Under the pieces are notes generated by a model, which searched no databases, was not told where the DNA came from, and saw only the letters and a list, made by a program, of their open reading frames with translations. A DNA stretch of 12,273 bases from Acinetobacter wuhouensis (lineage in GTDB: Bacteria; Pseudomonadota; Gammaproteobacteria; Pseudomonadales; Moraxellaceae), in contig NZ_CP031712.1 of the NCBI RefSeq assembly GCF_001696605.3, forward strand, positions 1 to 12,273, given 5' to 3'. The position numbers were made by a program, and so were the translations under genes. Below, piece by piece: positions 80-12,273 of the stretch. Every line of letters starts with the position of its first letter. The stretch's first letter is position 1.

Positions 80-83
80 CTTG

Positions 84-353: not shown

Positions 354-597
354 TCAACTCTCTGTGTTTTGTTTTCCCTGCACGTAATTGAGCAATTGAT
401 TCATTTAAACGACTTGCATTATTTGGAGATGAAAGGAGATATAACGTTTCCATTAAGCTATCATAATGATCTTGTCCCATTACTACAGCATGGCCACCTT
501 CTTTTCTTGTAATAAAAGCAACGTCTACATCATCAATTACTTTATCTAAAACAGATTTTAAATTGTTACGTGCGTCCGTATATGTAAATACATGCAT
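334..597 (-). CDS. yefM: YefM/Phd-family antitoxin
   Basis: This is the antitoxin partner of YoeB. It neutralises the toxin through its flexible C-terminal part and represses the operon through its N-terminal Phd/YefM fold (PF02604). The reading frame opens at 612, but I place the start at 597. There the protein begins MHVFTYTDARNNLK, the usual YefM N-terminus, and an AGGGA Shine-Dalgarno sequence lies 7 bases upstream, inside the first codons of the longer frame. This gives 87 residues. The segment DVAFITRKEGGHAVVMGQD matches the conserved YefM core, and the acidic tail RELIEDDES is typical of the toxin-binding end. It is transcribed first in the operon, with 20 bp of overlap with yoeB. No ParAB is visible on the plasmid, so this pair is the likely stability determinant. 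Confidence 0.93.
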   Translation of the reverse strand: MHVFTYTDARNNLKSVLDKVIDDVDVAFITRKEGGHAVVMGQDHYDSLMETLYLLSSPNNASRLNESIAQLRAGKTKHRELIEDDES

Positions 598-645
598 ATA
601 TCTATCCCTCATAGGGTAAGCTGCGTCAAAACGCTGCTAGCTAGA

Positions 646-660
646 CTACCTAGGCGGTAG
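646..660. repeat. Small inverted repeat in the yefM leader
   Basis: CTACC (646-650) and GGTAG (656-660) form a short hairpin in the untranslated leader between the yefM promoter and its ribosome-binding site. The function is unknown and it may be fortuitous. Confidence 0.35.
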
Positions 661-682
661 TGATTGAAACTTTACAATCCTA

Positions 683-711
683 AATGTACAGAATACTGTA
701 CATATTGTCAA
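683..711 (-). promoter_or_regulatory. yefM-yoeB promoter with double TGTACA operator
   Basis: On the minus strand there is a consensus -35 TTGACA (711-706), a 17-bp spacer and a -10 TACATT (688-683). Two TGTACA motifs at 685-690 and 697-702 overlap the -10 and the spacer, with their centres 12 bp apart. TGTACA cores at this spacing are the known operator layout of E. coli yefM-yoeB, so conditional autorepression by YefM-YoeB is expected. The first base of the -35 box is also the first base of the neighbouring pdif site. Confidence 0.85.
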
Positions 712-738
712 TTTCGTATAACAGCCATTATGTTAAAT
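711..738 (+). other. pdif site 2, spacer CAGCCA
   Basis: XerC arm ATTTCGTATAA, spacer CAGCCA and XerD arm TTATGTTAAAT, both arms close to consensus. Its right end encodes the last residue and the stop codon of the hydrolase gene (733-738). Its left edge shares one base with the yefM -35 box. It forms an inverted pair with 1278-1305 around the hydrolase, and a direct pair with identical spacer with 1350-1377. Confidence 0.92.
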
Positions 739-1212
739 CATCGTATTAGAAGATAAATTTTCAGATGTAGTAATTGATCTAAAATGATGTTTCCAAAGTT
801 GAATTCCTAAATTTCCACTTCGATCTAAAGAAGAACCTACAGTTAAATCTGTAACTAAGCAGGGGAAAAGACCAGCATCAAATAATCTAAAACCAGCAGC
901 AAGAACACACGTATCCGTTTGGATACCACATACATAAACTTGTTGAGTATCTAAACCTTTCAAATACTGAATCAAGTCATCTGTTGGAGAATATCCATAC
1001 TTAATAAATACTTTCTCTACTTTTAGTGGACATTCATCAAATTCCGATGGAGCCCAATTTAGCTGGCTTTTGAAGGGAACTATTGATTCATCATGTAGTT
1101 CTATAGTCGCGATTGAATGAACCGAAGGCAGCAATTTTTCTAATTTTTGTATTAACCAGTTAGGAGGATTAAAAGTTGATTGAACATCAATTATTAACAG
1201 GACTGGTTTCAT
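733..1212 (-). CDS. Isochorismatase-like cysteine hydrolase
   Basis: This is a member of the isochorismatase/nicotinamidase superfamily, alpha/beta hydrolases using an Asp-Lys-Cys triad. The frame is open from a TTG at 1224, but the ATG at 1212 begins MKPVLLIIDVQ, the normal start of the fold, giving 159 residues. In that numbering the triad is D9 (LIIDVQ), K71 (FIKYGYSP) and nucleophile C102 in GIQTDTCVLAAG. It is shorter than the usual 180-210 residues, but all catalytic blocks are present in order. The substrate cannot be read from sequence. No siderophore, nicotinamide or phenazine gene is nearby, so isochorismate itself is not favoured. It is the only gene between an inverted pair of pdif sites, hence a single-gene mobile module. 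The C-terminal Ile and stop come from the pdif XerD arm. No good ribosome-binding site is seen. Confidence 0.88.
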   Translation of the reverse strand: MKPVLLIIDVQSTFNPPNWLIQKLEKLLPSVHSIATIELHDESIVPFKSQLNWAPSEFDECPLKVEKVFIKYGYSPTDDLIQYLKGLDTQQVYVCGIQTDTCVLAAGFRLFDAGLFPCLVTDLTVGSSLDRSGNLGIQLWKHHFRSITTSENLSSNTMI

Positions 1213-1277
1213 AAATAATAACAAATTAGTTTTAGTAAATTGATTTTATCACAGAGAAGCCTTTTAAGAGCTACTAA

Positions 1278-1305
1278 AATTAATATAATATGCCTTATAA
1301 GAAAT
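1278..1305 (-). other. pdif site 3 (degenerate), spacer GGCATA
   Basis: Read on the minus strand: XerC arm ATTTCTTATAA, spacer GGCATA, XerD arm TTATATTAATT. The XerC arm has one central change and the XerD arm has G replaced by A. It lies upstream of the hydrolase gene and closes that module opposite the site at 711-738. Only 44 bp separate it from the next site. Confidence 0.75.
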
Positions 1306-1349
1306 CTGAAAAAAACAATTTAAATCAATATTTTAATGTGTTTTTAAAA

Positions 1350-1377
1350 AATTCACATAACAGCCATTATGTAAAAA
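1350..1377 (+). other. pdif site 4 (degenerate), spacer CAGCCA
   Basis: Arms AATTCACATAA and TTATGTAAAAA around spacer CAGCCA, identical to the spacer at 722-727. It ends three bases before the stop codon of the small membrane protein. On the minus strand its imperfect palindrome (UUUACAUAA against UUAUGUGAA, one G-U pair) is followed by six T residues, so it may also act as a weak terminator for that gene. Confidence 0.7.
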
Positions 1378-1380
1378 GGC

Positions 1381-1539
1381 TTAATCAAAATAACCTAAAA
1401 TTGCTAAAGTAGGTATAAAAAAGATCGCAAATACACCAAAATATTGAATCATCTTCTTATGTCTGAAATCTCGTTTAGAAATGATCAAAAGCAAAGCTGA
1501 AAAAGAAATGACTATTAATGTCCATGAAATTGAATACAT
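1381..1539 (-). CDS. Small two-helix membrane protein, 52 residues
   Basis: I do not recognise the family. The protein starts MYSISWTLIV and ends LAILGYFD. It has two hydrophobic stretches of membrane-spanning length, about residues 4-21 and 31-50. A strongly basic turn SKRDFRHKK (21-29) separates them and predicts a cytoplasmic loop with both ends outside. Support for a real gene is an AGGA Shine-Dalgarno 7 bases before the ATG, and an exact fit between an inverted pair of pdif sites (1350-1377 and 1583-1610), which makes it the only gene of its own module. The stop codon lies 3 bp from the pdif. Small size plus two helices is seen in toxin-like peptides, regulators of transporters and superinfection or stress proteins. 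Nothing in the sequence decides among these. Confidence 0.7.
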   Translation of the reverse strand: MYSISWTLIVISFSALLLIISKRDFRHKKMIQYFGVFAIFFIPTLAILGYFD

Positions 1540-1582
1540 ACTTAAATCCTAATTAATTATGTTGGGCTTTAAATTTCTCTAA

Positions 1583-1610
1583 AATTAACATAATACACCT
1601 TATACGAAAG
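1583..1610 (-). other. pdif site 5, spacer GGTGTA
   Basis: Minus strand reading: XerC arm CTTTCGTATAA, spacer GGTGTA, XerD arm TTATGTTAATT. It shares the spacer and nearly all arm bases with 2756-2783 and 8018-8045, all in the same orientation. It bounds the small membrane protein module on its promoter side. Confidence 0.9.
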
Positions 1611-1630
1611 GCCCATAAATTGGGCTTTTT
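1611..1630 (+). terminator. Small + strand intrinsic terminator between two pdif sites
   Basis: Stem GCCCA (1611-1615) with TGGGC (1621-1625), loop of 5, then five T residues. It fills most of the 28-bp gap between two same-orientation pdif sites. Confidence 0.55.
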
Positions 1631-1638
1631 GGTCATGC

Positions 1639-1666
1639 ATTTAACATAAAATCTCATCTACGAAAT
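1639..1666 (-). other. pdif site 6, spacer GAGATT
   Basis: Minus strand reading: XerC arm ATTTCGTAGAT, spacer GAGATT, XerD arm TTATGTTAAAT. The spacer equals those at 23-50 and 7015-7042 but in the opposite orientation, so pairing with either would invert DNA. It breaks the alternation of orientations, following another minus-oriented site by only 28 bp. Confidence 0.8.
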
Positions 1667-1681
1667 CCAGATTCAAGACAT

Positions 1682-1712
1682 AAAAAAGCCCGACATCCTG
1701 TCGGGCTTTTTT
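1682..1712. terminator. Bidirectional intrinsic terminator
   Basis: Perfect 8-bp stem GCCCGACA (1688-1695) with TGTCGGGC (1699-1706), loop TCC, preceded by six A and followed by six T residues. It therefore works for both strands. Confidence 0.85.
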
Positions 1713-2020
1713 AGATTGGGTTGCTCGTCTTGCTGATCTCGTGCTGCCCATTCCTTGCGCTACTTTCTTATTCTTGTTTTTTTGGAAACATCCTGTTCCC
1801 TGTATAGCCATCATAGGATTAATGCCTTGAATTACCAATCCGCAAAATCCTTAAATCTATGTAAGTTTTAGCTTACAAAGTTGGCCTATTTTTATCCCAA
1901 GAGTTGTCCGCAGAAATTGGGGATGATTTAAGCTCTCTATGGATTGATAATGCACACTAAAGTTTCATTTTGATTAAAAAATCATCAAAAACATTGGCAA
2001 GAAGTATCAAATCCGTTCAT

Positions 2021-2053
2021 AAAAAAGCCGACTTGTTTCCAAGTCGGCTTTTT
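2021..2053. terminator. Bidirectional intrinsic terminator
   Basis: Stem GCCGACTTG (2027-2035) with CAAGTCGGC (2040-2048) and loop TTTC. Six A residues precede it and five T residues follow. On the minus strand it is positioned to end the NTF2-like gene transcript after the pdif site at 2116-2143. Confidence 0.85.
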
Positions 2054-2115
2054 AGGTTTTGCGTCCCAATTTTTTATAGCATAACTTTTTGAAATATAAA
2101 ACTATTTATGAGTAC

Positions 2116-2143
2116 GTTTCGTATAAGCTCTATTATGTTAAAT
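2116..2143 (+). other. pdif site 7, spacer GCTCTA
   Basis: XerC arm GTTTCGTATAA, spacer GCTCTA (unique in this plasmid), XerD arm TTATGTTAAAT. It lies 15 bp past the stop codon of the NTF2-like gene and faces the inverted site at 2756-2783. Confidence 0.88.
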
Positions 2144-2158
2144 GGACTCTATTCTGTA

Positions 2159-2548
2159 TTATTTTGAATACGTACCTATGATTTCATGGCCATATGAATT
2201 GTCTATCGAGCATAGCCAAGTGCCTTCGGAATTCTTTGTAAATACATATGTTGCTTTACGGATTACTTCAGGGTAATTGGGTGCTGATACAATGGTATTG
2301 GCCAAGACTAAGGCTGAGTTTCCAGTTTCAAGAACTTCTATACCTTGTTGTCTTACTTGTAGTCCATTTTTAAAATATATAGCGATAGCTTCAAAGGCTT
2401 TACGAATAGCATCTTTACCTACTGCATTTTGACCAGGCTGAACAACTAATACAGCATCATTTGTATAAATATCCATGAGCGTATCAAAATCTTCAGCAAC
2501 AATCGCTTTATCGGCCTTATTAATTTGTTCAATAACTGGATGCGTCAT
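2159..2548 (-). CDS. NTF2-like / SnoaL-type small protein (DUF4440-like)
   Basis: A 129-residue protein with the look of the NTF2-like cone fold, of the kind annotated SgcJ/EcaC, SnoaL or DUF4440. An N-terminal helix pair with INKADKAIVAEDFDTLMDIYTNDAVLV (residues about 9-35) is followed by VGKDAIRKAFEA (43-54) and alternating beta strands that end in TWLCSIDNSYG near the C-terminus. Family members range from ketosteroid isomerase-like enzymes and polyketide cyclases to simple ligand-binding pockets. No catalytic set can be recognised here, so I leave the reaction open. The ATG at 2548 gives a normal N-terminus, but there is no strong ribosome-binding site. It is the sole gene between inverted pdif sites 2116-2143 and 2756-2783, a one-gene module on the minus strand like its neighbours. 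Confidence 0.8.
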   Translation of the reverse strand: MTHPVIEQINKADKAIVAEDFDTLMDIYTNDAVLVVQPGQNAVGKDAIRKAFEAIAIYFKNGLQVRQQGIEVLETGNSALVLANTIVSAPNYPEVIRKATYVFTKNSEGTWLCSIDNSYGHEIIGTYSK

Positions 2549-2755
2549 AATTCAACTACTATTATTAAGATAATGTTATTAGGAACTTAACTGAAGTTCT
2601 TACTAGTCTAGCCATGATTGGGTAATATCCACCATCATCTAATTCAGTTATGCATAATTAAAAATAACTTAGTCAATGATTCTACAATATATTTTGTGAA
2701 TTTCTTAATTTTATTAGATTTATCCTCTTTCTAAGAAAATGTTAAGATTCCCTAA

Positions 2756-2783
2756 AATTAACATAATACACCTTATACGAAAT
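2756..2783 (-). other. pdif site 8, spacer GGTGTA
   Basis: Minus strand reading: XerC arm ATTTCGTATAA, spacer GGTGTA, XerD arm TTATGTTAATT. It is identical over the 28 bp and a few flanking bases to 8018-8045 in the same orientation. It marks the left edge of the replicon 1 backbone. Confidence 0.93.
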
Positions 2784-2821
2784 GCTTTGATTTATCCCTT
2801 CTAAATCATTATCTTACTTTG

Positions 2822-2859
2822 AGCCGTTCCAGTATTCAGCGCACTGGAACGGCTTTTTT
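2822..2859 (+). terminator. + strand intrinsic terminator at the backbone edge
   Basis: A 12-bp perfect stem AGCCGTTCCAGT (2822-2833) with ACTGGAACGGCT (2843-2854), a 9-base loop, and T residues through 2859. There is no T tract on the minus strand. It faces transcripts entering the rep operon in antisense, like 8092-8121 in the other backbone. Confidence 0.8.
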
Positions 2860-2929
2860 GTGACTATTCACGTTCCACGCCTATTCTTTGATCAATGTTT
2901 CACGGTTTTAATTAAATAAACTGAATAAT

Positions 2930-3217
2930 TCAATCTGCACGATTTAAGCGATTATCTTGAATAAGATCATCCAATTTATCTTCTAAATCTTCAATCTTAT
3001 ATTTGAGCGATAAAATAGAATTTTTTAAACGCTCATTTTCAGGAGCATCAGGATTTTTTAATTGATTAAAAATTTCTAATAATTCGTTGCGATTAGTGCT
3101 TAACCTTTCAATGTCACTTTCAATAGCCATTCTTGGTGTCCACAGAGCAAGTAAAATTTGCTCATAGTCTTTGAGTTCTTGATGGCTCATTGCATCTAAT
3201 TCAGCTCTAGTTTTCAT
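2930..3217 (-). CDS. Rep-coupled small coiled-coil protein (copy 1)
   Basis: A 95-residue, highly charged helical protein. The N-terminus is AELDAMSHQELKDYEQ and WTPRMAIESDIERL lies near residues 26-39. A heptad-like C-terminal half (about 64-90, LKNSILSLKYKIEDLEDKL) suggests a coiled coil. I do not recognise a named family. Its ATG overlaps the rep1 stop codon as ATGA (3214-3217), which indicates translational coupling, so its amount should follow Rep. The paralogue at 8192-8479 sits in the same place behind rep2 and matches at 81 of 95 positions. A small gene kept in this position in both replicons suggests a role in replication or copy control, perhaps by binding Rep through the shared C-terminal domain. 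That role is inference. It lacks the helix-turn-helix of the larger DNA-binding proteins that follow rep in many Acinetobacter plasmids. Confidence 0.82.
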   Translation of the reverse strand: MKTRAELDAMSHQELKDYEQILLALWTPRMAIESDIERLSTNRNELLEIFNQLKNPDAPENERLKNSILSLKYKIEDLEDKLDDLIQDNRLNRAD

Positions 3218-4164
3218 GGTTTAAAATCCGTCTTGCTATGAAGAGCTTTAAAAATCCGCTTTGCTGTTTCCTCTCTTACACTTTTCGGATCTCGTAAGAT
3301 GCCACTAATCCAAAGGGCAAAACTAGGATAGTCCTGGAAGTTACTTAGGTCTGATAGCTCAGAAAGTTTAGATAAAATAGCACTGTACTTGTTAATTTGA
3401 GCATCAGACAGGTTGCAGAACATATCTATTGTTTTTGGATCTCGCTCAGGAGCTATTAATTTTGGCTTAGATTTTTCTTTCACAGTGAACTTAAAGCCGA
3501 CAACAGAACGTCCTTTTTTAACTGGACTATAGTCAACTGTTACATCGGTAAATTCATTAATTTCATCTAATGAGCTCTTCAAAACTCTTCGTTTTAAGTT
3601 CCTCAAATCTCTATAAGATTCTGGTAAACCAAACTCTGTAAACATTTCATCTAGCGTTAATTCAAAGCCATTTTTTGCCTGATTTTTTTTCGCTAAATGG
3701 TAAAAATCTATTGAGTAGTCTTTTTTTAATTTTAGAACTACATCTTTTTTATAACGAGTGTATGGATTGTATTTATCTAAAATTTTCAACATCACCAAAA
3801 CAATAGATGTAAACCTTAAAGATATCCCTGCATCTTCATAAGTAGCATCAATTACCCAGTTAGAGTAGACCTTTTTCCCCCTATCATTAACGTATGAAAA
3901 GGACCGATCTACTAGTTTTTTTGACGCATTTTCAATTTGTTTATAAGCAGAATTGACTTTGATACCACAGTCATCAGCAAATTGTTGAGCAGATATTAAG
4001 ATTTGATCTTGTTCACTTGCATCGACATTTCTAGCAATCGGAGAAGCCATAATTAAAATTCTTTTTTCATCTACAGACATGCTTTTAAAGCATTCAGTAA
4101 CTTTGTTTTGAATAGCCATTGTTGTTACTGGATAAGATTTATCATAACTATTTTCTTTATTCAT
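3214..4164 (-). CDS. repB: Rep_3-family replication initiator (replicon 1)
   Basis: A 316-residue iteron-binding initiator of the Rep_3/RepB superfamily (PF01051), which opens oriV and recruits host replication proteins. An N-terminal winged-helix region with NKVTECFKSMSVDEKRILIMASPIAR (about 19-45) and YKKDVVLKLKKDYSIDFYHLAKK (about 137-159) is followed by the second winged helix with LTLDEMFTEFGLPESYRDLRNLKRRVL (about 169-195), KKGRSVVGFKF at 216-226 and an alpha-helical tail. It is transcribed away from its iterons at 4256-4365. An AAGG motif lies 12 bases before the ATG, a weak and distant site. An inverted repeat of the iteron core (4201-4249) sits in the promoter region and suggests autorepression by Rep dimers. 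From residue 216 on it is nearly identical to Rep2, while the N-terminal part is much less similar, a mosaic pattern. Confidence 0.95.
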   Translation of the reverse strand: MNKENSYDKSYPVTTMAIQNKVTECFKSMSVDEKRILIMASPIARNVDASEQDQILISAQQFADDCGIKVNSAYKQIENASKKLVDRSFSYVNDRGKKVYSNWVIDATYEDAGISLRFTSIVLVMLKILDKYNPYTRYKKDVVLKLKKDYSIDFYHLAKKNQAKNGFELTLDEMFTEFGLPESYRDLRNLKRRVLKSSLDEINEFTDVTVDYSPVKKGRSVVGFKFTVKEKSKPKLIAPERDPKTIDMFCNLSDAQINKYSAILSKLSELSDLSNFQDYPSFALWISGILRDPKSVREETAKRIFKALHSKTDFKP

Positions 4165-4200
4165 TCAGATATCAAACCTTATAAAAAATGAACATGATTT

Positions 4201-4249
4201 TTGTACCCTTATGAGAAAACAATGTACACCAATAAACATAAGGGTACAA
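4201..4249. promoter_or_regulatory. Inverted repeat in the rep1 promoter region (probable Rep operator)
   Basis: TTGTACCCTTATG at 4201-4213 and its exact reverse complement at 4237-4249 carry the same TTGTACCC core as the iterons. In Rep_3 plasmids, dimers of Rep bind an inverted version of the iteron to repress rep. The position 37-85 bp before the rep1 start fits that role. Confidence 0.7.
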
Positions 4250-4255
4250 TAATTT

Positions 4256-4365
4256 ATTTGTACCCTTTATCATGCTATTTGTACCCTTTAATCATGCTAT
4301 TTGTACCCTTTTAAACGATAAAATCATGCTATTTGTACCCTTTATCATGCTATTTGTACCCTTTT
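4256..4365. repeat. Replicon 1 iterons
   Basis: Four copies of a 21-22-bp unit ATCATGCTATTTGTACCCTT start at 4269, 4291, 4323 and 4344, with spacings of 22, 32 and 21 bp. A partial unit ATTTGTACCCTTT lies at 4256-4268. A spacing near two helical turns is typical of Rep_3 binding arrays. The fifth half-unit points into the rep1 promoter. Confidence 0.92.
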
Positions 4366-4406
4366 AACGCTTGAAACTATTGCTGCATAAGGTTTTCAGA
4401 GGGTCT

Positions 4407-4431
4407 AAAAGCTTTTAAAAGCTTTTTAAAA
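4407..4431. promoter_or_regulatory. AT-rich palindromic tract, possible DNA unwinding element (copy A)
   Basis: Two AAAAGCTTTT-type palindromes in tandem, followed by AAAAG-rich sequence, lie directly beyond the iterons. AT-rich DNA next to iterons is where strand opening normally occurs. It is identical in both replicons although the iterons are unrelated. Confidence 0.5.
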
Positions 4432-4466
4432 GAATAAAAGGGAATTTATTTCCAAAGTGAGTTATT

Positions 4467-4541
4467 AAAACTGCCCTTGGTACTCGCTAAAGCTCGTACT
4501 CTATTGAAGCTCGTTTCACTCGCTTCGTGGGGGGCAGTTTT
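4467..4541. other. Structured element with a 10-bp closing stem and two inner hairpins (copy A)
   Basis: AAAACTGCCC (4467-4476) pairs perfectly with GGGCAGTTTT (4532-4541). The 55 bases between them hold GTAC...GTAC with GC pairs (4480-4499) and GAAGC/GCTTC (4506-4510, 4522-4526), so a three-way junction is possible. T residues follow on the + strand (to 4543), and a TTTTAATAA run follows on the minus strand. It lies downstream of mobA and could be its terminator or a structured RNA. Confidence 0.5.
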
Positions 4542-4630
4542 TTGCATATATGATCAAGGATTCAAAAAGCAAAACATGAATAATGCATTCGCTATGCTCA
4601 TGCTTTTTGACGAGCAAAAGCATCAATACT

Positions 4631-4738
4631 TCGCTCGTAGACACTCGCTAATCACTGTCCCCAGTAATTCAATAAAAAACGGTTTTTCAGAGGGGGAATA
4701 AGCAAACTTTCGTTGTGTCGCTCGTAGATACTCGCTAA
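4631..4738. repeat. Near-identical 21-mers TCGCTCGTAGA(C/T)ACTCGCTAA (copy A)
   Basis: The 21-mers are at 4631-4651 and 4718-4738 and differ at one base. A third ACTCGCTAA lies at 4482-4490 inside the structured element. Direct repeats in a plasmid backbone next to oriV could be protein-binding sites. The role is unknown. Confidence 0.55.
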
Positions 4739-4847
4739 AAGGCTCTCATTTGCGTTCTAAGCGATTTTATTTTTATCAACTATAGTTTTACTGTATTTCT
4801 ATCAAAAGTCGCTAAAACCCCCGTTTTTTTGCGCTTAAATGGGATTT

Positions 4848-6500
4848 CTAAGGCGTGTAGTCATGGTTATTGTCATTTTCTGGCTTTTTAGGCTCATTTC
4901 TCTGCTGTTTTTCTTGTTCTTGGCGTCTTACAAATGCCAAATGTTCTTGTTGCTCTCGTTCTTGTGCATAGCGTTGTTCTTGTTGCTCTCGTTCTTTACG
5001 TAACTGCTGTTCTCTAGATTCACGATCTTTTCGGTCGTTTTCGAGCTGTATTGCTCTTTTTTGGGAAAACTCTTGCTGCGCTTCGGTCTCAATTTTTTTT
5101 GTAAAAGCCGCATGCAATTCTTGGATTTTTAGATCTTCCATTTCTTCTGCATATAGTCGCTTTTGTTTTTCACCATTTTGAGGACTAAAGTATTTATTTC
5201 CATAGTTATCTTCTTCAAATATATAACTATTTATGATCTCCAGTCTTTGATCGCGTACATACTCTTGATACTCAGTTTCTCTGCGTGATATTTCAGAAAT
5301 TTGATGATCTATATTTGAAATTTGATCATTAAGTTTTCGTTGTTTAACAGTGATGTTCGGTTCGTCAAATTTTGCAAAAGACTTTTTAGGCTGGAGCAGC
5401 TGATTTTCTTCTGTCCATTTATTTAAATGATCAGAATATCTCTCTTTTTTTTCTATTTCACTAAGACCAGAAATATGCTTTTGGATGTCTAGTTGGGTGT
5501 TGTGTTGGTCGATCAGGTCATTTATTTGATTGATCCATTTTGTTTTAAAAAATAAAGGCTCTTTTTTGCGTAGTTCTGATATTGCAGAACTCATCGTGTC
5601 TAATTTTGTTGTTAATTTTGATAATTCTTCATTTTGGAATTCATAAAGTTTCTGAGAAGTTTTTTCTGAATACTCAGCTTGAGAGTATTGAAACTGAAGC
5701 TCACTTCGTACTTTTTGAACAAGATCCTCAGATACTTTGATGTTTTCATCCAGTGCGATGACCTTTTTGATTTTTAAATTACGTAGCTTAATTTCATCAT
5801 TTTTCAGACTAATTTCTGTAAATATCCCTCGTCTCCGGAGGTATGTCGCTTGAGGACCTTCGTGCTGAGTTGCTTCTAGGTCACTTTCCTGGTCTTCATA
5901 ACTTCTGTGATCGACACGTTCATCAAATCCATTTTGTTCCAGGTGATGATTGCATAACTCTGCAAATGATTCTCTCCAGTGGCTTACAGTTTCTGTGCCA
6001 TTGTCACGACTGAAGTCCCTATATTTTTTTGCTGAAAAGCCACCCTGCTCATTAATACTTCGGGTTGTGAACATGATGTGTGCATGGTAGTTGCGTTCAT
6101 CACTTCCACTGTCTGTATGAGGTGCATGAATAGCAGCATCAACGATGACACCGTATTTTTTAACGAGGTTTCGGCAAAGTTCATTGAGCATATTTTCACG
6201 CTGTTCAGCGTTTAACTCACTGGGAAATGCAATCTCAAACTCTCTTGCAAGTAATGCATCTTTTCTACGTTCAACCTTTTCGACTTCATTCCAAAGTGTT
6301 TGGCGCTTGAGTAACTCAGTATTTGTATTTTCAGGTGCATAGATTTTTGTAAATTCGACACCAGTTTTTCTTGTGTAGTCTTGTTCTTTTCCATAAAAAT
6401 CGCATACCAATTTTTCACTTGAACGATATGCAGCACAAGCAACGGCCGATCGTCCATTACCTCTACTAATCGTTTTAACTGAAAAATGATATATCGCCAT
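4848..6500 (-). CDS. mobA: MOBQ relaxase, MobA/MobL family (copy A)
   Basis: A 550-residue conjugative relaxase (PF03389) that nicks oriT and pilots the strand during helper-dependent mobilisation. The N-terminus starts MAIYHFSVKTISRGNGRSAV. Tyr25 in CAAYRSSEK lines up with the catalytic Tyr25 of RSF1010 MobA. The metal-binding histidines are in IHAPHTDSGSDERNYHAHIMF (about residues 123-143). The relaxase domain fills about residues 1-210. After it come helical, coiled-coil sequence and a tail rich in Arg, Glu and Gln (about 470-540), with no primase domain like that of the longer RSF1010 protein. It is divergent to mobC, with oriT and several palindromes between. There is no strong ribosome-binding site; an AAAGAG lies about 10 bases upstream. 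An identical copy lies at 10129-11781, so either protein should serve both oriTs. Confidence 0.95.
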   Translation of the reverse strand: MAIYHFSVKTISRGNGRSAVACAAYRSSEKLVCDFYGKEQDYTRKTGVEFTKIYAPENTNTELLKRQTLWNEVEKVERRKDALLAREFEIAFPSELNAEQRENMLNELCRNLVKKYGVIVDAAIHAPHTDSGSDERNYHAHIMFTTRSINEQGGFSAKKYRDFSRDNGTETVSHWRESFAELCNHHLEQNGFDERVDHRSYEDQESDLEATQHEGPQATYLRRRGIFTEISLKNDEIKLRNLKIKKVIALDENIKVSEDLVQKVRSELQFQYSQAEYSEKTSQKLYEFQNEELSKLTTKLDTMSSAISELRKKEPLFFKTKWINQINDLIDQHNTQLDIQKHISGLSEIEKKERYSDHLNKWTEENQLLQPKKSFAKFDEPNITVKQRKLNDQISNIDHQISEISRRETEYQEYVRDQRLEIINSYIFEEDNYGNKYFSPQNGEKQKRLYAEEMEDLKIQELHAAFTKKIETEAQQEFSQKRAIQLENDRKDRESREQQLRKEREQQEQRYAQEREQQEHLAFVRRQEQEKQQRNEPKKPENDNNHDYTP

Positions 6501-6516
6501 TTTGCTTTTGCTCTTT

Positions 6517-6554
6517 ATTTCGATTTATCGAAATTACCAACATGTATATGTTGG
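6517..6554. promoter_or_regulatory. Two palindromes in the mobA-mobC divergent region (copy A)
   Basis: ATTTCGAT/ATCGAAAT (6517-6524, 6527-6534) and CCAACAT/ATGTTGG (6537-6543, 6548-6554) are perfect inverted repeats just upstream of mobA. They are suited to binding MobC or a relaxosome repressor that controls mob transcription. A third, AAGGGG/CCCCTT, is at 6568-6584. The same set recurs 5,281 bp to the right. Confidence 0.55.
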
Positions 6555-6590
6555 TCAGGGGATTACAAAGGGGATTTACCCCTTGTCGCA

Positions 6591-6625
6591 CCATTGGATG
6601 AAATCCAATGGCTAAGTGCGCCCTT
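6591..6625 (+). other. oriT: MOBQ-type origin of transfer, oriT (copy A)
   Basis: A perfect 9-bp inverted repeat CCATTGGAT/ATCCAATGG (6591-6599, 6603-6611) is followed at once by CTAAGTGCGCCCTT. The TAAGTGCGCCCT core after a hairpin is the RSF1010/R1162/pSC101 class nic region, with the cut expected within GTGCGCCCT. The location between divergent mobA and mobC is the standard MOBQ arrangement. Confidence 0.9.
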
Positions 6626-6711
6626 CGGGAAAACCACGATAGCATGGGCTGTCTTGAATTTCAATTCAAACAGACCTATGCTTGAGGGGGATTCCTTGAG
6701 ATGGTGATGGT

Positions 6712-7014
6712 ATGAGTGTTGAAACTTTAGAGCAAAAAATTGCAAAGCAAGAAGAACGATTAAGACAACTAAAAGCACAAAAACAAGCTATTGCTGCTCG
6801 TGAAAAAAAGAAAAATTCTGATCGACAAAGAAAAGATGATACTAGACGTAAAATTCTACTGGGGGCTTGGGTTCTAAACAAACTGAAAAATGATGAATCT
6901 TTTAAGGGTCAACTAACCGATTTTGAAAAGTTTTTAAGCACGGAAAGTAAGACTGAAGAAAATAGGCAGAAAGATAAAGATCTTTTTAATGGATTTATTT
7001 GGGATAAGACCTAA
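6712..7014 (+). CDS. mobC: MobC-like relaxosome accessory protein (copy A)
   Basis: A 100-residue basic helical protein resembling RSF1010 MobC. There is an N-terminal coiled coil (VETLEQKIAKQEERLRQLKAQK, residues 3-24) and then a basic stretch leading into RKDDTRRKILLGAWVLNKLKND (about 40-61). The latter corresponds to the ETRRKVLVGAMIL-type block of MobC. MobC helps to open oriT for the relaxase. The gene is divergent from mobA and starts about 90 bp beyond the oriT core, after a GGTGATGG motif that may be the ribosome-binding site. Its stop codon touches the pdif site at 7015. The last seven codons lie outside the exact repeat and read FIWDKT-stop, against VIWNNT-stop in copy B. Confidence 0.85.
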   Translation: MSVETLEQKIAKQEERLRQLKAQKQAIAAREKKKNSDRQRKDDTRRKILLGAWVLNKLKNDESFKGQLTDFEKFLSTESKTEENRQKDKDLFNGFIWDKT

Positions 7015-7042
7015 ATTTCGCATAAGAGATTTTATGTTAAAT
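7015..7042 (+). other. pdif site 9, spacer GAGATT
   Basis: XerC arm ATTTCGCATAA, spacer GAGATT, XerD arm TTATGTTAAAT, all consensus. It starts at the base after the mobC stop codon, and its XerD arm encodes the end of TetR (7032-7042). It forms a direct pair with 23-50, with the same spacer. Confidence 0.95.
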
Positions 7043-7589
7043 AGGTTCGATTAAGCAGATCGTCTTCTAATTTTGAACATTGCTCATCATCAATGACTCC
7101 GGTAATACTTTGTAGCCACAACCCATCTGCTGCTAAACGAAGTAACTCTAAATCAGGATGACTATCCGTTTCTGCATGTTGAGATAATCTATTTTTTAGC
7201 CATTCCATCCAAATTTTATTAAAGGTAGGCTCTGTGATCATAGTCATTGATAACGCTGACCAAGCAGAAACCACCCCATCTATTTGATGGATAAAAGAAC
7301 TATGAATATAAGCTCGTGTGAATTTACCATATTCTGTTGGATCGCGTTTAATCAAGTATTCAACTGTTTGATCTAAATCAAGAATTATTTGATTGAACAT
7401 TTCTTCTATCAAATTTTTTTTATTCGGGAAATGGTGAAATACCCCCCCTTTTGTTATACCTACTGCTGTAGCAATATTTTGAATAGAAACACCAGAAATA
7501 CCCTTTTGAGAAACAAGAATAGTTGCCTGTTCAAGGATGCGCTTTCGAATAACCTCTGGTTGCTTCTTTTGTTGCCGAATTTCTTTCAC
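7032..7589 (-). CDS. TetR/AcrR-family repressor linked to the SMR transporter
   Basis: A 185-residue one-component regulator. The N-terminal TetR domain has IRKRILEQATILVSQKG (14-30) and the helix-turn-helix VSIQNIATAVGITKGGVFHHFPNK (34-57). The C-terminal helical part should bind ligand and form the dimer. The start is GTG, placed immediately after the TAA of the transporter gene. An AGCAGG ribosome-binding site lies within the last transporter codons, 7 bases upstream, so the two genes are co-transcribed and translationally linked. The likely target is the inverted repeat CATACCT/AGGTATG upstream of the transporter gene, which would make the operon self-repressed and drug-inducible. The last residues and stop are encoded by the XerD arm of the pdif site. 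Confidence 0.92.
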   Translation of the reverse strand: MKEIRQQKKQPEVIRKRILEQATILVSQKGISGVSIQNIATAVGITKGGVFHHFPNKKNLIEEMFNQIILDLDQTVEYLIKRDPTEYGKFTRAYIHSSFIHQIDGVVSAWSALSMTMITEPTFNKIWMEWLKNRLSQHAETDSHPDLELLRLAADGLWLQSITGVIDDEQCSKLEDDLLNRTYLT

Positions 7590-7934
7590 TTAATGACCTG
7601 CTGATTGCGAAAATAAATTAATAATTATTACGCCAGATACGATAAAACCAATTCCAATTAAAGCAGGATTATCTAGTGTCTGTTTAAAAACAAAGTAGCT
7701 AACTACAGCAGTTAGAACAATCCCAACACCAGCCCATATAGCGTATGCGATACCTAAAGGGATTGTTTTAATAACTTGTGATAATAAATAAAATGCCGTG
7801 CTAAAAAAAATAAAGACCATCACGCTTGGAAAAAGTTTTGTAAACCCTTCCGATTTAACTAAAAAACTACTTCCAATCACTTCGGAAACTATTGAAAATC
7901 CAAGTAATACATAAGCGAGTAACACACTGTTCAT
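7590..7934 (-). CDS. Small multidrug resistance (SMR) efflux transporter
   Basis: A 114-residue, four-helix inner-membrane protein of the EmrE/QacE/SugE family, dual-topology dimers that exchange protons for cationic compounds such as quaternary ammonium disinfectants. The essential membrane Glu is E18 (IVSEVIGSS), matching EmrE E14. The signature KTIPLGIAYAIWAGVGIVL (residues 56-74) contains Y64, W67, G69 and G71, equivalent to EmrE Y60, W63, G65 and G67. The AYAIWAGVG motif favours the drug-exporting rather than the guanidinium-exporting (SugE/Gdx) branch. The substrate range cannot be read from the sequence. The gene comes first in a two-gene operon with tetR, inside an inverted pdif pair. 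The AGG ribosome-binding motif is 11 bases from the ATG and overlaps the presumed operator. Confidence 0.94.
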   Translation of the reverse strand: MNSVLLAYVLLGFSIVSEVIGSSFLVKSEGFTKLFPSVMVFIFFSTAFYLLSQVIKTIPLGIAYAIWAGVGIVLTAVVSYFVFKQTLDNPALIGIGFIVSGVIIINLFSQSAGH

Positions 7935-7941
7935 AAGTAAT

Positions 7942-7996
7942 CATACCTAAAATACCCATCGGAAGGTATGTTAAATTTTCAAAAAAAAATTATCAA
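7942..7996 (-). promoter_or_regulatory. SMR-tetR promoter and putative TetR operator
   Basis: On the minus strand, -35 TTGATA (7996-7991), a 17-bp A/T-rich spacer and -10 TAACAT (7973-7968). CATACCT (7942-7948) and AGGTATG (7964-7970) form an inverted repeat with 15 bp between arms. It overlaps the -10 and the ribosome-binding region, a sensible operator for the adjacent TetR. The protein-site match is inferred. Confidence 0.6.
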
Positions 7997-8017
7997 TAAT
8001 TATTTTAGATTTTCTAA

Positions 8018-8045
8018 AATTAACATAATACACCTTATACGAAAT
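8018..8045 (-). other. pdif site 10, spacer GGTGTA
   Basis: Minus strand reading: XerC arm ATTTCGTATAA, spacer GGTGTA, XerD arm TTATGTTAATT. It is identical to 2756-2783 and closes the SMR-tetR module opposite 7015-7042. Confidence 0.94.
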
Positions 8046-8091
8046 GCGTTATAATTATCCTTATAATTCAACGCTGTAGTTTCAATTTTCT

Positions 8092-8121
8092 AGCCCAGTC
8101 GTCAATGACTGGGCTTTTTTT
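8092..8121 (+). terminator. + strand intrinsic terminator at the backbone edge
   Basis: A perfect 9-bp stem AGCCCAGTC (8092-8100) with GACTGGGCT (8107-8115), loop of 6, T residues to 8121. It has the same place and orientation as 2822-2859 but an unrelated stem sequence. Confidence 0.82.
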
Positions 8122-8191
8122 ATTACTTTTCACGTTCCACGCCTAGTCTTTAATCAATGTTCCACGATTTTGATTAAATAAACTGAATAAT

Positions 8192-8479
8192 TCAATCTGC
8201 AGAATTTAAGCGATTATCTTGAATAAGATCACTCAACTTACCTTCAAGCGATTCGATTTTATATTTCAGAGACAAGATTGAATCTTTTAAACGTGAATTT
8301 TTAGGTGCATCCGGATTCTTTAATTGATTAAAAACCTCTAATAATTCGCTGTGATGAGTGCTTAACCTTTCAATGTCACTTTCAATAGCCATTCTTGGTG
8401 TCCACAGAGCAAGTAAACTTTGCTCATAATCTTTGAGTTCTTGATGACTCATTGCATCTAATTCAGCCTTAGTTCTCAT
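8192..8479 (-). CDS. Rep-coupled small coiled-coil protein (copy 2)
   Basis: A 95-residue paralogue of the product of 2930-3217, with 14 substitutions and no gaps. The changes concentrate in residues 42-44, 60-66 and 77-83, while the N-terminal 40 residues are almost constant. The start codon overlaps the rep2 stop as ATGA (8476-8479), so coupling is conserved. The same argument for a Rep-associated role applies. The constant N-terminus would suit contact with the constant C-terminal domain of the two Rep proteins, which is speculation. No DNA-binding motif or known family is recognised. Confidence 0.82.
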   Translation of the reverse strand: MRTKAELDAMSHQELKDYEQSLLALWTPRMAIESDIERLSTHHSELLEVFNQLKNPDAPKNSRLKDSILSLKYKIESLEGKLSDLIQDNRLNSAD

Positions 8480-9417
8480 GGTTTAAAATCCGTCTTGCTA
8501 TGAAGAGCTTTAAAAATCCGTTTTGTTGTTTCCTCTCTTACACTTTTCGGATCTCGTAAGATGCCACTAATCCAGAGGGCAAATGTCGGGTAGTCTGGGA
8601 AATTACTGAGGTCTGATAGCTCAGAAAGTTTAGATAAAATAGTGCTGTACTTGTTAATTTGAGCATCAGATAAATTGCAGAACATATCTATAGTTCTTTG
8701 ATCTCGCTGAGGCGCTATTAATTTTGGCTTAGGTTTTTCTTTCACTATAAATTTAAAGCCAACTACTGAACGCCCTTTTTTTACATTTTCATAAGTGAGT
8801 TCAATATCTGTATTAGTTGTAATCTCATTTAATGAAGGCTTCATTACTCGGTCTTTTAAATTACAGAGTTTGTCATAAGATTTGGGCAAACCCAGCTCAT
8901 TTTTTATATGTTCTAAGGACATTTCAAATTGTCCCATTGCTTGATGCTTTTTAGCTAAATGATAAAGATCGAATGAGTAATCTTTTTTCAAACTTAGTAC
9001 GATATCTTTTTTATATTTTGTATAAGGGTTTAATTTATCAAACTCTTTTAACATCAGTAGAACGATTTCAGGGAAACGTATAGCTATCCCTCCGTCTTCA
9101 TAAGTGCAATCAATCACCCAATTCGACAGCACCTTTTTTCCTCTTTCATTGTTATAAGAGAAATTTCTTTTAAGTAGATTCTTGCTGGCTAGTTCTAACT
9201 GCGTATATGCGGAATGCGTTTTAATGCCACATTCTCTAGCAAACTCTTCTGCCGTAATCATAATTCGGTCTTTTTCAGTTGCATCAGTGGTTCTAGCAAT
9301 TGGGCTAGCAAGTATTAACATTCGTTTTTCATCAATGTTCATACTCTTAAAGCATTCTTGAACATTGTTTTGCATAACAACCCAGCTCAGAGGATATGTT
9401 TTTTTATTTTCGTCCAT
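8476..9417 (-). CDS. repB: Rep_3-family replication initiator (replicon 2)
   Basis: A 313-residue initiator, the paralogue of the protein at 3214-4164. Segments NNVQECFKSMNIDEKRMLILASPIAR, ERGKKVLSNWVIDCTYEDGG and YKKDIVLSLKKDYSFDLYHLAKK keep the first winged helix. The second carries MSLEHIKNELGLPKSYDKLCNLKDRVM, clearly different from Rep1 where iteron reading is expected. From KKGRSVVGFKF (residue 213) to the end, 92 of 101 residues equal Rep1. Its iterons (9549-9642) share no unit with those of Rep1, so the replicons should be compatible, which fits their coexistence on one molecule. The ATG at 9417 has no clear ribosome-binding site. GTAG-containing inverted repeats at 9446-9465 and 9504-9530 are candidate autoregulatory sites. 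Confidence 0.95.
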   Translation of the reverse strand: MDENKKTYPLSWVVMQNNVQECFKSMNIDEKRMLILASPIARTTDATEKDRIMITAEEFARECGIKTHSAYTQLELASKNLLKRNFSYNNERGKKVLSNWVIDCTYEDGGIAIRFPEIVLLMLKEFDKLNPYTKYKKDIVLSLKKDYSFDLYHLAKKHQAMGQFEMSLEHIKNELGLPKSYDKLCNLKDRVMKPSLNEITTNTDIELTYENVKKGRSVVGFKFIVKEKPKPKLIAPQRDQRTIDMFCNLSDAQINKYSTILSKLSELSDLSNFPDYPTFALWISGILRDPKSVREETTKRIFKALHSKTDFKP

Positions 9418-9503
9418 ATAACTACAACCCCAAAAAACTAACTAACTACATTGGTATTTATGTAGCTTAAACATACATTGTCGTTTATTTTTTGACTACT
9501 ATT

Positions 9504-9530
9504 TTTGTAGTTTTTTAACAAAACTACAAA
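9504..9530. promoter_or_regulatory. Inverted repeat in the rep2 promoter region (probable Rep operator)
   Basis: TTTGTAGTTTT (9504-9514) and AAAACTACAAA (9520-9530) are exact reverse complements and carry the TGTAGTTT element of the iterons. By analogy with replicon 1 this is a candidate site for Rep autorepression. A shorter pair, CTACAT/ATGTAG, is at 9446-9451 and 9460-9465. Confidence 0.6.
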
Positions 9531-9537
9531 CTTTTTC

Positions 9538-9642
9538 TTGTAGTTTAATGTCCGGTAAAAGTAGTTTCTATGTCCGGTAAAAGTAGTTTTTTAAGTCCAT
9601 TTTGTCCGGCATTTGTAGTTTAATGTCCGGTAAAAGTAGTTT
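9538..9642. repeat. Replicon 2 iterons
   Basis: The unit TGTCCGGTAAAAGTAGTTT occurs at 9549-9567, 9571-9589 and 9624-9642, and as a degenerate copy at 9603-9621. Spacings are 22, 32 and 21 bp, the same series as in replicon 1 although the sequence is unrelated. The first and last units are each preceded by TTGTAGTTTAA, giving two 30-bp repeats (9538-9567, 9613-9642). Confidence 0.92.
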
Positions 9643-9747
9643 TTTAAAGTCTGAAAGCATTGCTAGGCGTGGTTTATAGGGGGGTCTAAAAGCTTTTAAA
9701 AGCTTTTTAAAAGAATAAAAGGGAATTTATTTCCAAAGTGAGTTATT

Positions 9748-9822
9748 AAAACTGCCCTTGGTACTCGCTAAAGCTCGTACTCTATTGAAGCTCGTTTCAC
9801 TCGCTTCGTGGGGGGCAGTTTT
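9748..9822. other. Structured element with closing stem and two inner hairpins (copy B)
   Basis: Identical to 4467-4541. The closing stem arms are 9748-9757 and 9813-9822. Confidence 0.5.
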
Positions 9823-10128
9823 TTGCATATATGATCAAGGATTCAAAAAGCAAAACATGAATAATGCATTCGCTATGCTCATGCTTTTTGACGAGCAAAA
9901 GCATCAATACTTCGCTCGTAGACACTCGCTAATCACTGTCCCCAGTAATTCAATAAAAAACGGTTTTTCAGAGGGGGAATAAGCAAACTTTCGTTGTGTC
10001 GCTCGTAGATACTCGCTAAAAGGCTCTCATTTGCGTTCTAAGCGATTTTATTTTTATCAACTATAGTTTTACTGTATTTCTATCAAAAGTCGCTAAAACC
10101 CCCGTTTTTTTGCGCTTAAATGGGATTT

Positions 10129-11781
10129 CTAAGGCGTGTAGTCATGGTTATTGTCATTTTCTGGCTTTTTAGGCTCATTTCTCTGCTGTTTTTCTTGTTC
10201 TTGGCGTCTTACAAATGCCAAATGTTCTTGTTGCTCTCGTTCTTGTGCATAGCGTTGTTCTTGTTGCTCTCGTTCTTTACGTAACTGCTGTTCTCTAGAT
10301 TCACGATCTTTTCGGTCGTTTTCGAGCTGTATTGCTCTTTTTTGGGAAAACTCTTGCTGCGCTTCGGTCTCAATTTTTTTTGTAAAAGCCGCATGCAATT
10401 CTTGGATTTTTAGATCTTCCATTTCTTCTGCATATAGTCGCTTTTGTTTTTCACCATTTTGAGGACTAAAGTATTTATTTCCATAGTTATCTTCTTCAAA
10501 TATATAACTATTTATGATCTCCAGTCTTTGATCGCGTACATACTCTTGATACTCAGTTTCTCTGCGTGATATTTCAGAAATTTGATGATCTATATTTGAA
10601 ATTTGATCATTAAGTTTTCGTTGTTTAACAGTGATGTTCGGTTCGTCAAATTTTGCAAAAGACTTTTTAGGCTGGAGCAGCTGATTTTCTTCTGTCCATT
10701 TATTTAAATGATCAGAATATCTCTCTTTTTTTTCTATTTCACTAAGACCAGAAATATGCTTTTGGATGTCTAGTTGGGTGTTGTGTTGGTCGATCAGGTC
10801 ATTTATTTGATTGATCCATTTTGTTTTAAAAAATAAAGGCTCTTTTTTGCGTAGTTCTGATATTGCAGAACTCATCGTGTCTAATTTTGTTGTTAATTTT
10901 GATAATTCTTCATTTTGGAATTCATAAAGTTTCTGAGAAGTTTTTTCTGAATACTCAGCTTGAGAGTATTGAAACTGAAGCTCACTTCGTACTTTTTGAA
11001 CAAGATCCTCAGATACTTTGATGTTTTCATCCAGTGCGATGACCTTTTTGATTTTTAAATTACGTAGCTTAATTTCATCATTTTTCAGACTAATTTCTGT
11101 AAATATCCCTCGTCTCCGGAGGTATGTCGCTTGAGGACCTTCGTGCTGAGTTGCTTCTAGGTCACTTTCCTGGTCTTCATAACTTCTGTGATCGACACGT
11201 TCATCAAATCCATTTTGTTCCAGGTGATGATTGCATAACTCTGCAAATGATTCTCTCCAGTGGCTTACAGTTTCTGTGCCATTGTCACGACTGAAGTCCC
11301 TATATTTTTTTGCTGAAAAGCCACCCTGCTCATTAATACTTCGGGTTGTGAACATGATGTGTGCATGGTAGTTGCGTTCATCACTTCCACTGTCTGTATG
11401 AGGTGCATGAATAGCAGCATCAACGATGACACCGTATTTTTTAACGAGGTTTCGGCAAAGTTCATTGAGCATATTTTCACGCTGTTCAGCGTTTAACTCA
11501 CTGGGAAATGCAATCTCAAACTCTCTTGCAAGTAATGCATCTTTTCTACGTTCAACCTTTTCGACTTCATTCCAAAGTGTTTGGCGCTTGAGTAACTCAG
11601 TATTTGTATTTTCAGGTGCATAGATTTTTGTAAATTCGACACCAGTTTTTCTTGTGTAGTCTTGTTCTTTTCCATAAAAATCGCATACCAATTTTTCACT
11701 TGAACGATATGCAGCACAAGCAACGGCCGATCGTCCATTACCTCTACTAATCGTTTTAACTGAAAAATGATATATCGCCAT
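10129..11781 (-). CDS. mobA: MOBQ relaxase, MobA/MobL family (copy B)
   Basis: The protein is identical in all 550 residues to the relaxase at 4848-6500, including Tyr25 and the NYHAHIMF histidine motif. It belongs to the replicon 2 half of the circle. Two identical relaxase genes in direct orientation on one small plasmid make the molecule prone to RecA-dependent resolution. Complete identity beside clearly diverged rep genes means that the copies were homogenised or joined very recently. Confidence 0.95.
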   Translation of the reverse strand: MAIYHFSVKTISRGNGRSAVACAAYRSSEKLVCDFYGKEQDYTRKTGVEFTKIYAPENTNTELLKRQTLWNEVEKVERRKDALLAREFEIAFPSELNAEQRENMLNELCRNLVKKYGVIVDAAIHAPHTDSGSDERNYHAHIMFTTRSINEQGGFSAKKYRDFSRDNGTETVSHWRESFAELCNHHLEQNGFDERVDHRSYEDQESDLEATQHEGPQATYLRRRGIFTEISLKNDEIKLRNLKIKKVIALDENIKVSEDLVQKVRSELQFQYSQAEYSEKTSQKLYEFQNEELSKLTTKLDTMSSAISELRKKEPLFFKTKWINQINDLIDQHNTQLDIQKHISGLSEIEKKERYSDHLNKWTEENQLLQPKKSFAKFDEPNITVKQRKLNDQISNIDHQISEISRRETEYQEYVRDQRLEIINSYIFEEDNYGNKYFSPQNGEKQKRLYAEEMEDLKIQELHAAFTKKIETEAQQEFSQKRAIQLENDRKDRESREQQLRKEREQQEQRYAQEREQQEHLAFVRRQEQEKQQRNEPKKPENDNNHDYTP

Positions 11782-11797
11782 TTTGCTTTTGCTCTTT

Positions 11798-11835
11798 ATT
11801 TCGATTTATCGAAATTACCAACATGTATATGTTGG
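11798..11835. promoter_or_regulatory. Two palindromes in the mobA-mobC divergent region (copy B)
   Basis: Same as 6517-6554: ATTTCGAT/ATCGAAAT and CCAACAT/ATGTTGG upstream of mobA copy B. Confidence 0.55.
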
Positions 11836-11871
11836 TCAGGGGATTACAAAGGGGATTTACCCCTTGTCGCA

Positions 11872-11906
11872 CCATTGGATGAAATCCAATGGCTAAGTGC
11901 GCCCTT
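11872..11906 (+). other. oriT: MOBQ-type origin of transfer, oriT (copy B)
   Basis: Inverted repeat at 11872-11880 and 11884-11892, followed by the TAAGTGCGCCCT core. Identical to copy A and in the same orientation. Two direct oriTs on one circle allow transfer that begins at one and ends at the other, which would deliver a single replicon half. Confidence 0.9.
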
Positions 11907-11992
11907 CGGGAAAACCACGATAGCATGGGCTGTCTTGAATTTCAATTCAAACAGACCTATGCTTGAGGGGGATTCCTTGAGATGGTGATGGT

Positions 11993-12273
11993 ATGAGTGT
12001 TGAAACTTTAGAGCAAAAAATTGCAAAGCAAGAAGAACGATTAAGACAACTAAAAGCACAAAAACAAGCTATTGCTGCTCGTGAAAAAAAGAAAAATTCT
12101 GATCGACAAAGAAAAGATGATACTAGACGTAAAATTCTACTGGGGGCTTGGGTTCTAAACAAACTGAAAAATGATGAATCTTTTAAGGGTCAACTAACCG
12201 ATTTTGAAAAGTTTTTAAGCACGGAAAGTAAGACTGAAGAAAATAGGCAGAAAGATAAAGATCTTTTTAATGG
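11993..12273 (+). CDS. mobC: MobC-like relaxosome accessory protein (copy B), 5' part up to the window edge
   Basis: The first 93 codons plus two bases are identical to mobC copy A. The frame remains open to the last base and is completed by bases 1-22 if the molecule is circular, giving 100 residues. See the entry at 1-22 for the end. The same coiled coil and TRRKILLGAWVL block are present. Confidence 0.88.
   Translation, partial: MSVETLEQKIAKQEERLRQLKAQKQAIAAREKKKNSDRQRKDDTRRKILLGAWVLNKLKNDESFKGQLTDFEKFLSTESKTEENRQKDKDLFN

Follow-up and report, generated by a model that had tools for sequence, protein, structure and literature searches.

Does the 12,273-bp contig NZ_CP031712.1 of Acinetobacter wuhouensis (RefSeq assembly GCF_001696605.3) describe one plasmid that was made from two, and if so, where were the two joined? 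The window analyzed here is this entire contig (C4, positions 1 to 12,273, forward strand) of an eight-contig Acinetobacter genome of 3,960,451 bases in total, in which one contig measures 3.85 Mb and the other seven are small, and it carries two different Rep_3 replication initiator genes, here called rep A and rep B, each accompanied by a copy of the same mobilization (mob) segment. We consider it rather probable that two compatible mobilizable plasmids of the Rep_3/OrfX type, A and B, fused into one cointegrate by RecA-type recombination in the shared mob segment. In the mechanism we propose, plasmid A would have contributed rep A with toxin-antitoxin, hydrolase and SnoaL modules, and plasmid B rep B with a TetR/SMR module; each would already have carried the mob segment, in which homologous (RecA-type) recombination joined them, and gene conversion between the copies, or graph collapse during assembly, would have made the copies identical.

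Two plasmid units around a duplicated mob segment

The copies of the mob segment, R1 beside rep A (4401-6992) and R2 beside rep B (9682-12273, ending at the contig's final base), both on the forward strand, were 100% identical over exactly 2,592 bp, and identity stopped at both edges, the right edge being checked across the circle join. Among the best 40 of 78 candidate places scored, R1 and R2 were the sole full-length copies of the segment in this genome. The repeat spacing of 5,281 bp leaves a remaining arc of 6,992 bp, and a crossover between R1 and R2 would yield circles of these two sizes. Each copy holds a MobQ relaxase gene, an oriT core and most of a mobC-like open reading frame (ORF). 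The relaxase genes (4848-6500 and 10129-11781, reverse strand) are identical in sequence and exceed the curated cutoff of NCBIfam NF041496 (259.8 bits against 200), as is characteristic of a MOBQ mobilizable plasmid. The motif TAAGTGCGCCCT, which we take to be the oriT core, lies at 6613-6624 and 11894-11905 on the forward strand.

Outside the repeats the two units differ. The Rep3_N and Rep3_C Pfam domains matched in both Rep proteins (PF01051/PF21205), whose genes (rep A, 3214-4164; rep B, 8476-9417; both reverse strand) share 74% DNA identity over 901 bp. Downstream of each rep gene, on the same strand, stands an orfX-like partner (2930-3217 and 8192-8479); the two are equal at 82 of 96 positions, stop included, and had no Pfam or NCBIfam match, and the orfX assignment accordingly rests on position and mutual similarity rather than on a family model. 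The iterons, of TATTTGTACCCTTT type for rep A (4255-4364) and ATGTCCGGTAAAAGTAGTTT type for rep B (9538-9642), both on the forward strand, have no 10-mer in common. A pair of distinct Rep_3 genes, both equipped with iterons and followed by an orfX-type ORF, is a feature of Rep_3/OrfX cointegrates, and the window has it. The preliminary description of this DNA had proposed a cointegrate of 6,992 and 5,281 bp, and the repeat together with the two distinct Rep_3/iteron systems confirms that layout; the Pfam, NCBIfam and iteron comparisons likewise bear out its assignment of one rep gene, one partner gene, one iteron set, one relaxase and one oriT to each arc. The span given there, 4401 to 12,273, takes in the repeat and the B unit and omits 1-4400, the part unique to the larger circle. 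Its count of one mobC per circle stands, as two forward-strand copies of the mobC-like ORF are present (named by position, with no Pfam or NCBIfam match), with the correction that only the first (6712-7014) is uninterrupted, the second running across the contig end (11993-12273, then 1-22).

Free relatives of both component plasmids occur in other isolates, where the preliminary description had suggested that either half be sought. The A. baumannii CRAb1 plasmid NZ_CP133716.1, a 5,281-bp circle, aligned with the whole length of the B half, the two differing in 22 alignment columns (by blastn, 17 mismatches plus 2 gap openings). Sixteen of these 22 differences fall in a 28-bp patch at 8082-8109, which reads as a localized replacement in the stretch that separates the SMR module from orfX. 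The A half was recovered with one module exchanged: the A. defluvii plasmid p2_010030 (7,173 bp) aligned with it in two blocks, one of 4,735 bp containing 2 mismatches and 1 gap, the other of 1,659 bp containing 2 mismatches. The rep A backbone (2784-4400) had 0 differences in its 1617 bases, and the sole differing module sits between the pdif sites at 2116 and 2756. There the SnoaL-like module of the window takes the place of a helix-turn-helix regulator module of p2_010030 in near-identical surroundings, a clean single dif-module exchange. The strain A. lwoffii EK30A has a rep A plasmid and a rep B plasmid as separate records, which suggests that the two plasmid types are compatible; the mob segments of these two plasmids are ~99.5% alike over ~2.2 kb.

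A second fused record, p4_010034 (12,457 bp), is arranged like the window (rep A, R, SMR module, rep B, R, A cargo), with a 2,412-bp repeat whose copies are identical. Its B unit differs from that of the window at 1 of 2,689 bases, and its A half is identical over 5,102 bp to a separate plasmid, p7_010062; the p4_010034 rep A backbone differs from p7_010062 at 0 of 1,617 bases and from the window at 21 of 1,617. A nearly unchanged B unit with different A partners points to separate fusions, so that fusion probably occurred at least twice. The free plasmid p7_010062 (NZ_CP033127.1) exceeds the A circle of p4_010034 by 174 bp and has a partial local duplication near 2385-2492, at the left end of its mob segment. 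In a survey of 175 Acinetobacter genomes, with the two best candidate places scored per genome, 7 carried a near-identical rep A, 7 a near-identical rep B and 2 carried both (hypergeometric P = 0.026, uncorrected), and in these two genomes, those of the window and of p4_010034, both genes lay on one contig. Among the 40 candidates scored in each of the two, no additional mob segment exceeded 89% identity, the best further match being 66 bp only, and no second rep A was found in the genome of the window.

Several other records touch the two plasmid types. Bases 9682-12273 and 1-2145 of the window match the repeat unit of pAcsw19-3, which carries rep B, over 4,737 bp with 3 mismatches; rep B plasmids with toxin-antitoxin genes therefore exist, and the pAcsw19-3 run also includes the hydrolase. 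This record (NZ_CP043310.1) contains about five copies of 7.7 kb that differ from one another by indels, pAB839-3 (CP119246.1) is an exact 2 x 5,623 bp and pAS903-1-3 (CP119211.1) a near-exact, about 2 x 6,566 bp record. All three may be real multimers or long-read assembly artefacts, and they were not used as evidence of fusion, although their mob segments do supply rows to the comparisons below (pAcsw19-3 to that at 4529 only). A further record, p3_010055 (NZ_CP032282.1, 1-14838), joins rep B with the present mob segment to a second unit with RepM and another MobQ relaxase; it seems to be a further cointegrate, in whose formation the shared mob segment had no part. Positions 4548-5495 of a draft contig titled Nakamurella silvestris encode a protein with 100% identity to the full length of rep A, likely a contamination with Acinetobacter plasmid DNA. 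Finally, 19 of 40 listed records (143 had a match) begin their similarity at query position 383, which is window position 9682 (and 4401); that the likeness between many rep A plasmids and rep B plasmids starts at exactly this base points to an ancient exchange of the rep/iteron cassette at a single fixed position.

Position of the exchange

The preliminary description attributed the fusion to RecA or XerCD, the latter at a pair of pdif sites with the spacer GAGATT that lie at 23-50 and 7015-7042 on the forward strand, next to the repeats. The two sites do have a common spacer, a common orientation and the positions required for the correct circle sizes; the site at 23-50, however, has four arm mismatches. 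We compared the 22-bp mobC tail and the adjoining GAGATT pdif site in 22 records, the window included, which gave 25 tail sites, 24 of them followed by a pdif site, with one record giving none. Tail type and pdif form were concordant in 24/24 cases (16 of one form, 8 of the other) and no hybrid was seen in the 24, a number that includes the window's two sites, the two of p4_010034 and both copies of two dimer records, so that fewer than 24 are independent. In the window the SMR-side tail adjoins SMR and the toxin-side tail adjoins the toxin genes, as in the free plasmids, and it is rep A and rep B that are switched. Recombination by XerCD at GAGATT would have parted each tail from its cargo; because the tails are parental, the exchange is placed to the left of the tail, inside the repeat. 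From the sequence, then, the exchange lies within the shared mob segment rather than at the GAGATT pair, arguing for RecA rather than XerCD. The same pattern was found in p4_010034, where the tails were alike and the two mobC regions differed at 26 of 228 bases. Of the two enzymes originally proposed, the RecA-type route is thus favored. XerCD fusion at the GAGATT pair, at which the hybrid pdif site characteristic of XerCD cointegrates is absent, was rejected as the fusing event on the parental tails and arms, and we regard it as extremely improbable.

A single diagnostic base within the mob segment bears on what happened to the two copies afterwards. At 4529 (forward strand) most rep A records have one G fewer: the G was missing in 9 of 10 other rep A records with data, some of them draft contigs, and in 0 of 8 other rep B records. 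The plasmid p7_010062 has no 4529 data of its own, and counting it through p4_010034, which is identical to it there, brings the missing G to 10 of 11 rep A records; the exception is the rep A plasmid pHZE30-1-7, from which the deletion is absent. The table behind these counts keeps a single copy each of pAcsw19-3 (out of five), pAB839-3 and pAS903-1-3 and excludes two partial rows; EK30A pALWEK1.10 has no row because its match was split. Both copies in the window have the G, so that the copy beside rep A is in the rep B state, whereas in p4_010034 the copy beside rep B is in the rep A state. The opposite states imply that the copies were homogenised in opposite directions in the two records, which gene conversion, or removal of a small bubble in a short-read graph, would accomplish. 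The state of the window could also have been inherited from a parent like pHZE30-1-7.

Two other recombination routes deserve weighing against RecA-type exchange in the mob segment. The window has a second pair of pdif sites, with the spacer GGTGTA, which was absent from the preliminary description: one site beside orfX of rep A (2756-2783) and one beside orfX of rep B (8018-8045), both on the reverse strand, with the same 28 bases in the same orientation. XerCD acting here could have fused a 5,262-bp rep A-R-SMR plasmid with a 7,011-bp rep B-R-toxin-antitoxin-hydrolase plasmid, and since the two sites are identical any hybrids would be invisible. Active pairs in A. baumannii plasmids had a GGTGTA spacer according to PMC9947245, p1ABAYE and p2ABAYE are described in PMC11705084 as fused by a GGTGTA pair, and plasmids of the second parental kind exist, as the pAcsw19-3 repeat unit attests. 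A free plasmid with the SnoaL module beside rep A in the window order, which would have spoken against this route, was not found, and 0 of 960 matching records covered 80% of 2100-3300. Yet the free 5,281-bp plasmid already has the SMR/rep B junction at 8018, so that this junction calls for no fresh fusion; among the records examined, a free plasmid of the rep A-R-SMR kind with the present mob segment was not seen (R of the nearest, pE47_005, is ~84% alike at its start), and the tet(39)/rep A junction of p4_010034 is parental, being found in p7_010062. We therefore consider fusion at the GGTGTA pair quite unlikely. Relaxase-mediated recombination between oriTs occurs in other plasmids, and a relaxase that recombined the two oriTs of the window (nic regions at 6613 and 11894) would yield the same circles as the mob-segment exchange; both oriTs lie inside the repeat to the left of the mobC tail, and the tail evidence fits this route too. 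Markers to the left of nic should then have stayed with their own rep gene, however, and both copies in the window are in the B state at 4529; moreover, a 2.6-kb identical segment makes RecA exchange far likelier, leaving the relaxase route very improbable.

If the window arose by RecA-type fusion in the mob segment, it could resolve in two ways. Return through the mob segment would give the 6,992- and 5,281-bp circles, while XerCD acting at the GGTGTA pair would give different ones, of 5,262 and 7,011 bp, and would thereby swap the cargo of rep A and rep B. We infer that RecA was the enzyme, that the fused circle may be abundant in the cell and that fusion may be reversible. A broader proposal is that the relaxase/oriT segment, common to many Acinetobacter Rep_3 plasmids, serves as a recurrent docking site, which compatible plasmids enter by homologous recombination and leave by XerCD at the GGTGTA pair beside orfX, with rep genes being swapped between cargo sets; we offer this as a speculative idea and think it doubtful.

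Joined molecule or assembly join

The most serious competitor to a real fusion is that A and B were separate co-resident plasmids and that a graph-based hybrid assembler collapsed their shared segment to one node and bridged A to B. Both the window and p4_010034 end precisely where the repeat ends, without a single base of overhang, and the chance of such a cut is about 4 in 12,000 for each record. A cut at the repeat boundary implies that the repeat was probably a single node of a short-read graph, in which case its copies would be identical by construction. We infer that Unicycler assembled this genome. The Unicycler paper states that finished replicons are rotated to start at dnaA or repA where one is detected, that bridge sequence is taken from the short-read graph and that, once one bridge has been placed, a second path can be joined by elimination. 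By eye, the chromosome-sized contig C8 starts at an apparent dnaA start codon and C2 at a Rep-like ORF, whereas none of the other five contigs inspected was seen to start with a rep gene. False plasmid joins through shared repeats are documented: a published guide describes two plasmids that Unicycler joined in this way, although there the product was one linear contig with the repeat collapsed, and the window keeps two repeat copies. Judging from their names, the window and p4_010034 possibly came from one laboratory's pipeline. Long reads of >2.6 kb would normally resolve the repeat, identity of R1 and R2 is equally expected after recombination, and the mob segment is on no separate contig in either genome, as expected with a real or a false join.

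Besides the position of the cut, several observations count against a RecA-type cointegrate. Every junction in the window except the ends of the SnoaL module also occurs in other plasmids, so that none proves a joined molecule. A single crossover between a p2_010030-like and a CRAb1-like plasmid predicts unequal states at 4529, and both copies are in the B state; conversion, a pHZE30-1-7-like parent or bubble removal must be added to accommodate this, and p4_010034 presents the mirror image of the same problem. On balance we hold that the window is probably a real cointegrate rather than an assembly join, and we rate the assembly join as a possible but unlikely origin. Should the joined molecule be real, small Acinetobacter plasmids fuse via the transfer genes they have in common and not at pdif sites alone, such fusions have probably been repeated in different species, and the reshuffling of rep genes and cargo modules in this plasmid family has a simple account. 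If it is an assembly join, records of similar size with two identical mob regions need checks at the level of reads.

Cargo modules and relation to known cointegrates

The window contains 10 distinct pdif-like sites (from 11 listed matches, since one site was matched on each strand), far above chance given 1 such match altogether in 20 simulated sequences. As in Rep_3/OrfX cointegrates, these sites bound the backbones and modules, and, as in XerCD cointegrates, they include directly oriented pairs with identical spacers (GAGATT and GGTGTA). The cargo genes all lie on the reverse strand. In the A half are a YoeB/Phd-YefM toxin-antitoxin pair (84-612; Pfam PF06769 and PF02604), an isochorismatase-like cysteine hydrolase (733-1224; PF00857) and the dif module at 2144-2755 with its SnoaL-like gene (2159-2548). 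The dif module of the B half (7032-7934), with a TetR regulator and an SMR transporter, was named after the matching record NZ_CP133716.1; NCBIfam models for TetR and SMR gave matches, none of which reached its curated cutoff.

The window is very probably the plasmid p4_010060, which a table of PMC11233732 lists as CP031712.1 of A. wuhouensis and as matching pC54_004 over 75% at 99.49%; in our comparison the A half matched pC54_004 over 3,332 and 1,649 of 6,575 bases. Mindlin et al. 2020 (PMC7693717) described p4_010060 and p4_010034 as group I-1a plasmids built of repeating elements, with two backbones that have identical mobilization genes and differ in repB (77%), and with two dif modules and a single toxin-antitoxin copy, features that the window shows. 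The section of that paper devoted to the two plasmids does not take up resolved circles, a pair of free relatives, the exchange point or a test for an assembly join. Rep_3 cointegrates as such are already well documented; what we add is the pair of free relatives, the exchange point, an apparently separate second fusion and an alternative resolution pair. In searches confined to open-licence PMC papers, we found no earlier account of the free-relative pair, the exchange point, the second fusion or resolution at GGTGTA.

Several known systems can be set beside the window. Ambrose, Xiao and Hall 2026 (PMC13141974) reported that 11 of 35 r3-T5 types are cointegrates; these Rep_3/OrfX molecules resemble the window in combining two different Rep_3 backbones and dif modules in one circle, but their fusion is ascribed to pdif sites, whereas the exchange in the window falls in the shared mob segment. 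The p1ABAYE/p2ABAYE cointegrates (PMC11705084) include, in p1ABAYE, a plasmid related to the A half through rep A, and yet, as described there, they are XerC-dependent, form at pdif-type sites and are minority forms. The fusions of pAb242 and pAb825 (PMC9947245) likewise illustrate reversible fusion and resolution of Acinetobacter Rep_3 plasmids, with the difference that they are reported to arise at pXerC/D sites and to leave hybrid sites. Another parallel comes from pAbe229-15 and pAbe229-9 of A. bereziniae HPC229 (PMC6863613), between which the authors inferred a past exchange of a mobA-bearing segment (93% alike); these are two separate plasmids, as presented in that report with no fused molecule containing both copies, while the window holds both copies of its mob segment in one record.

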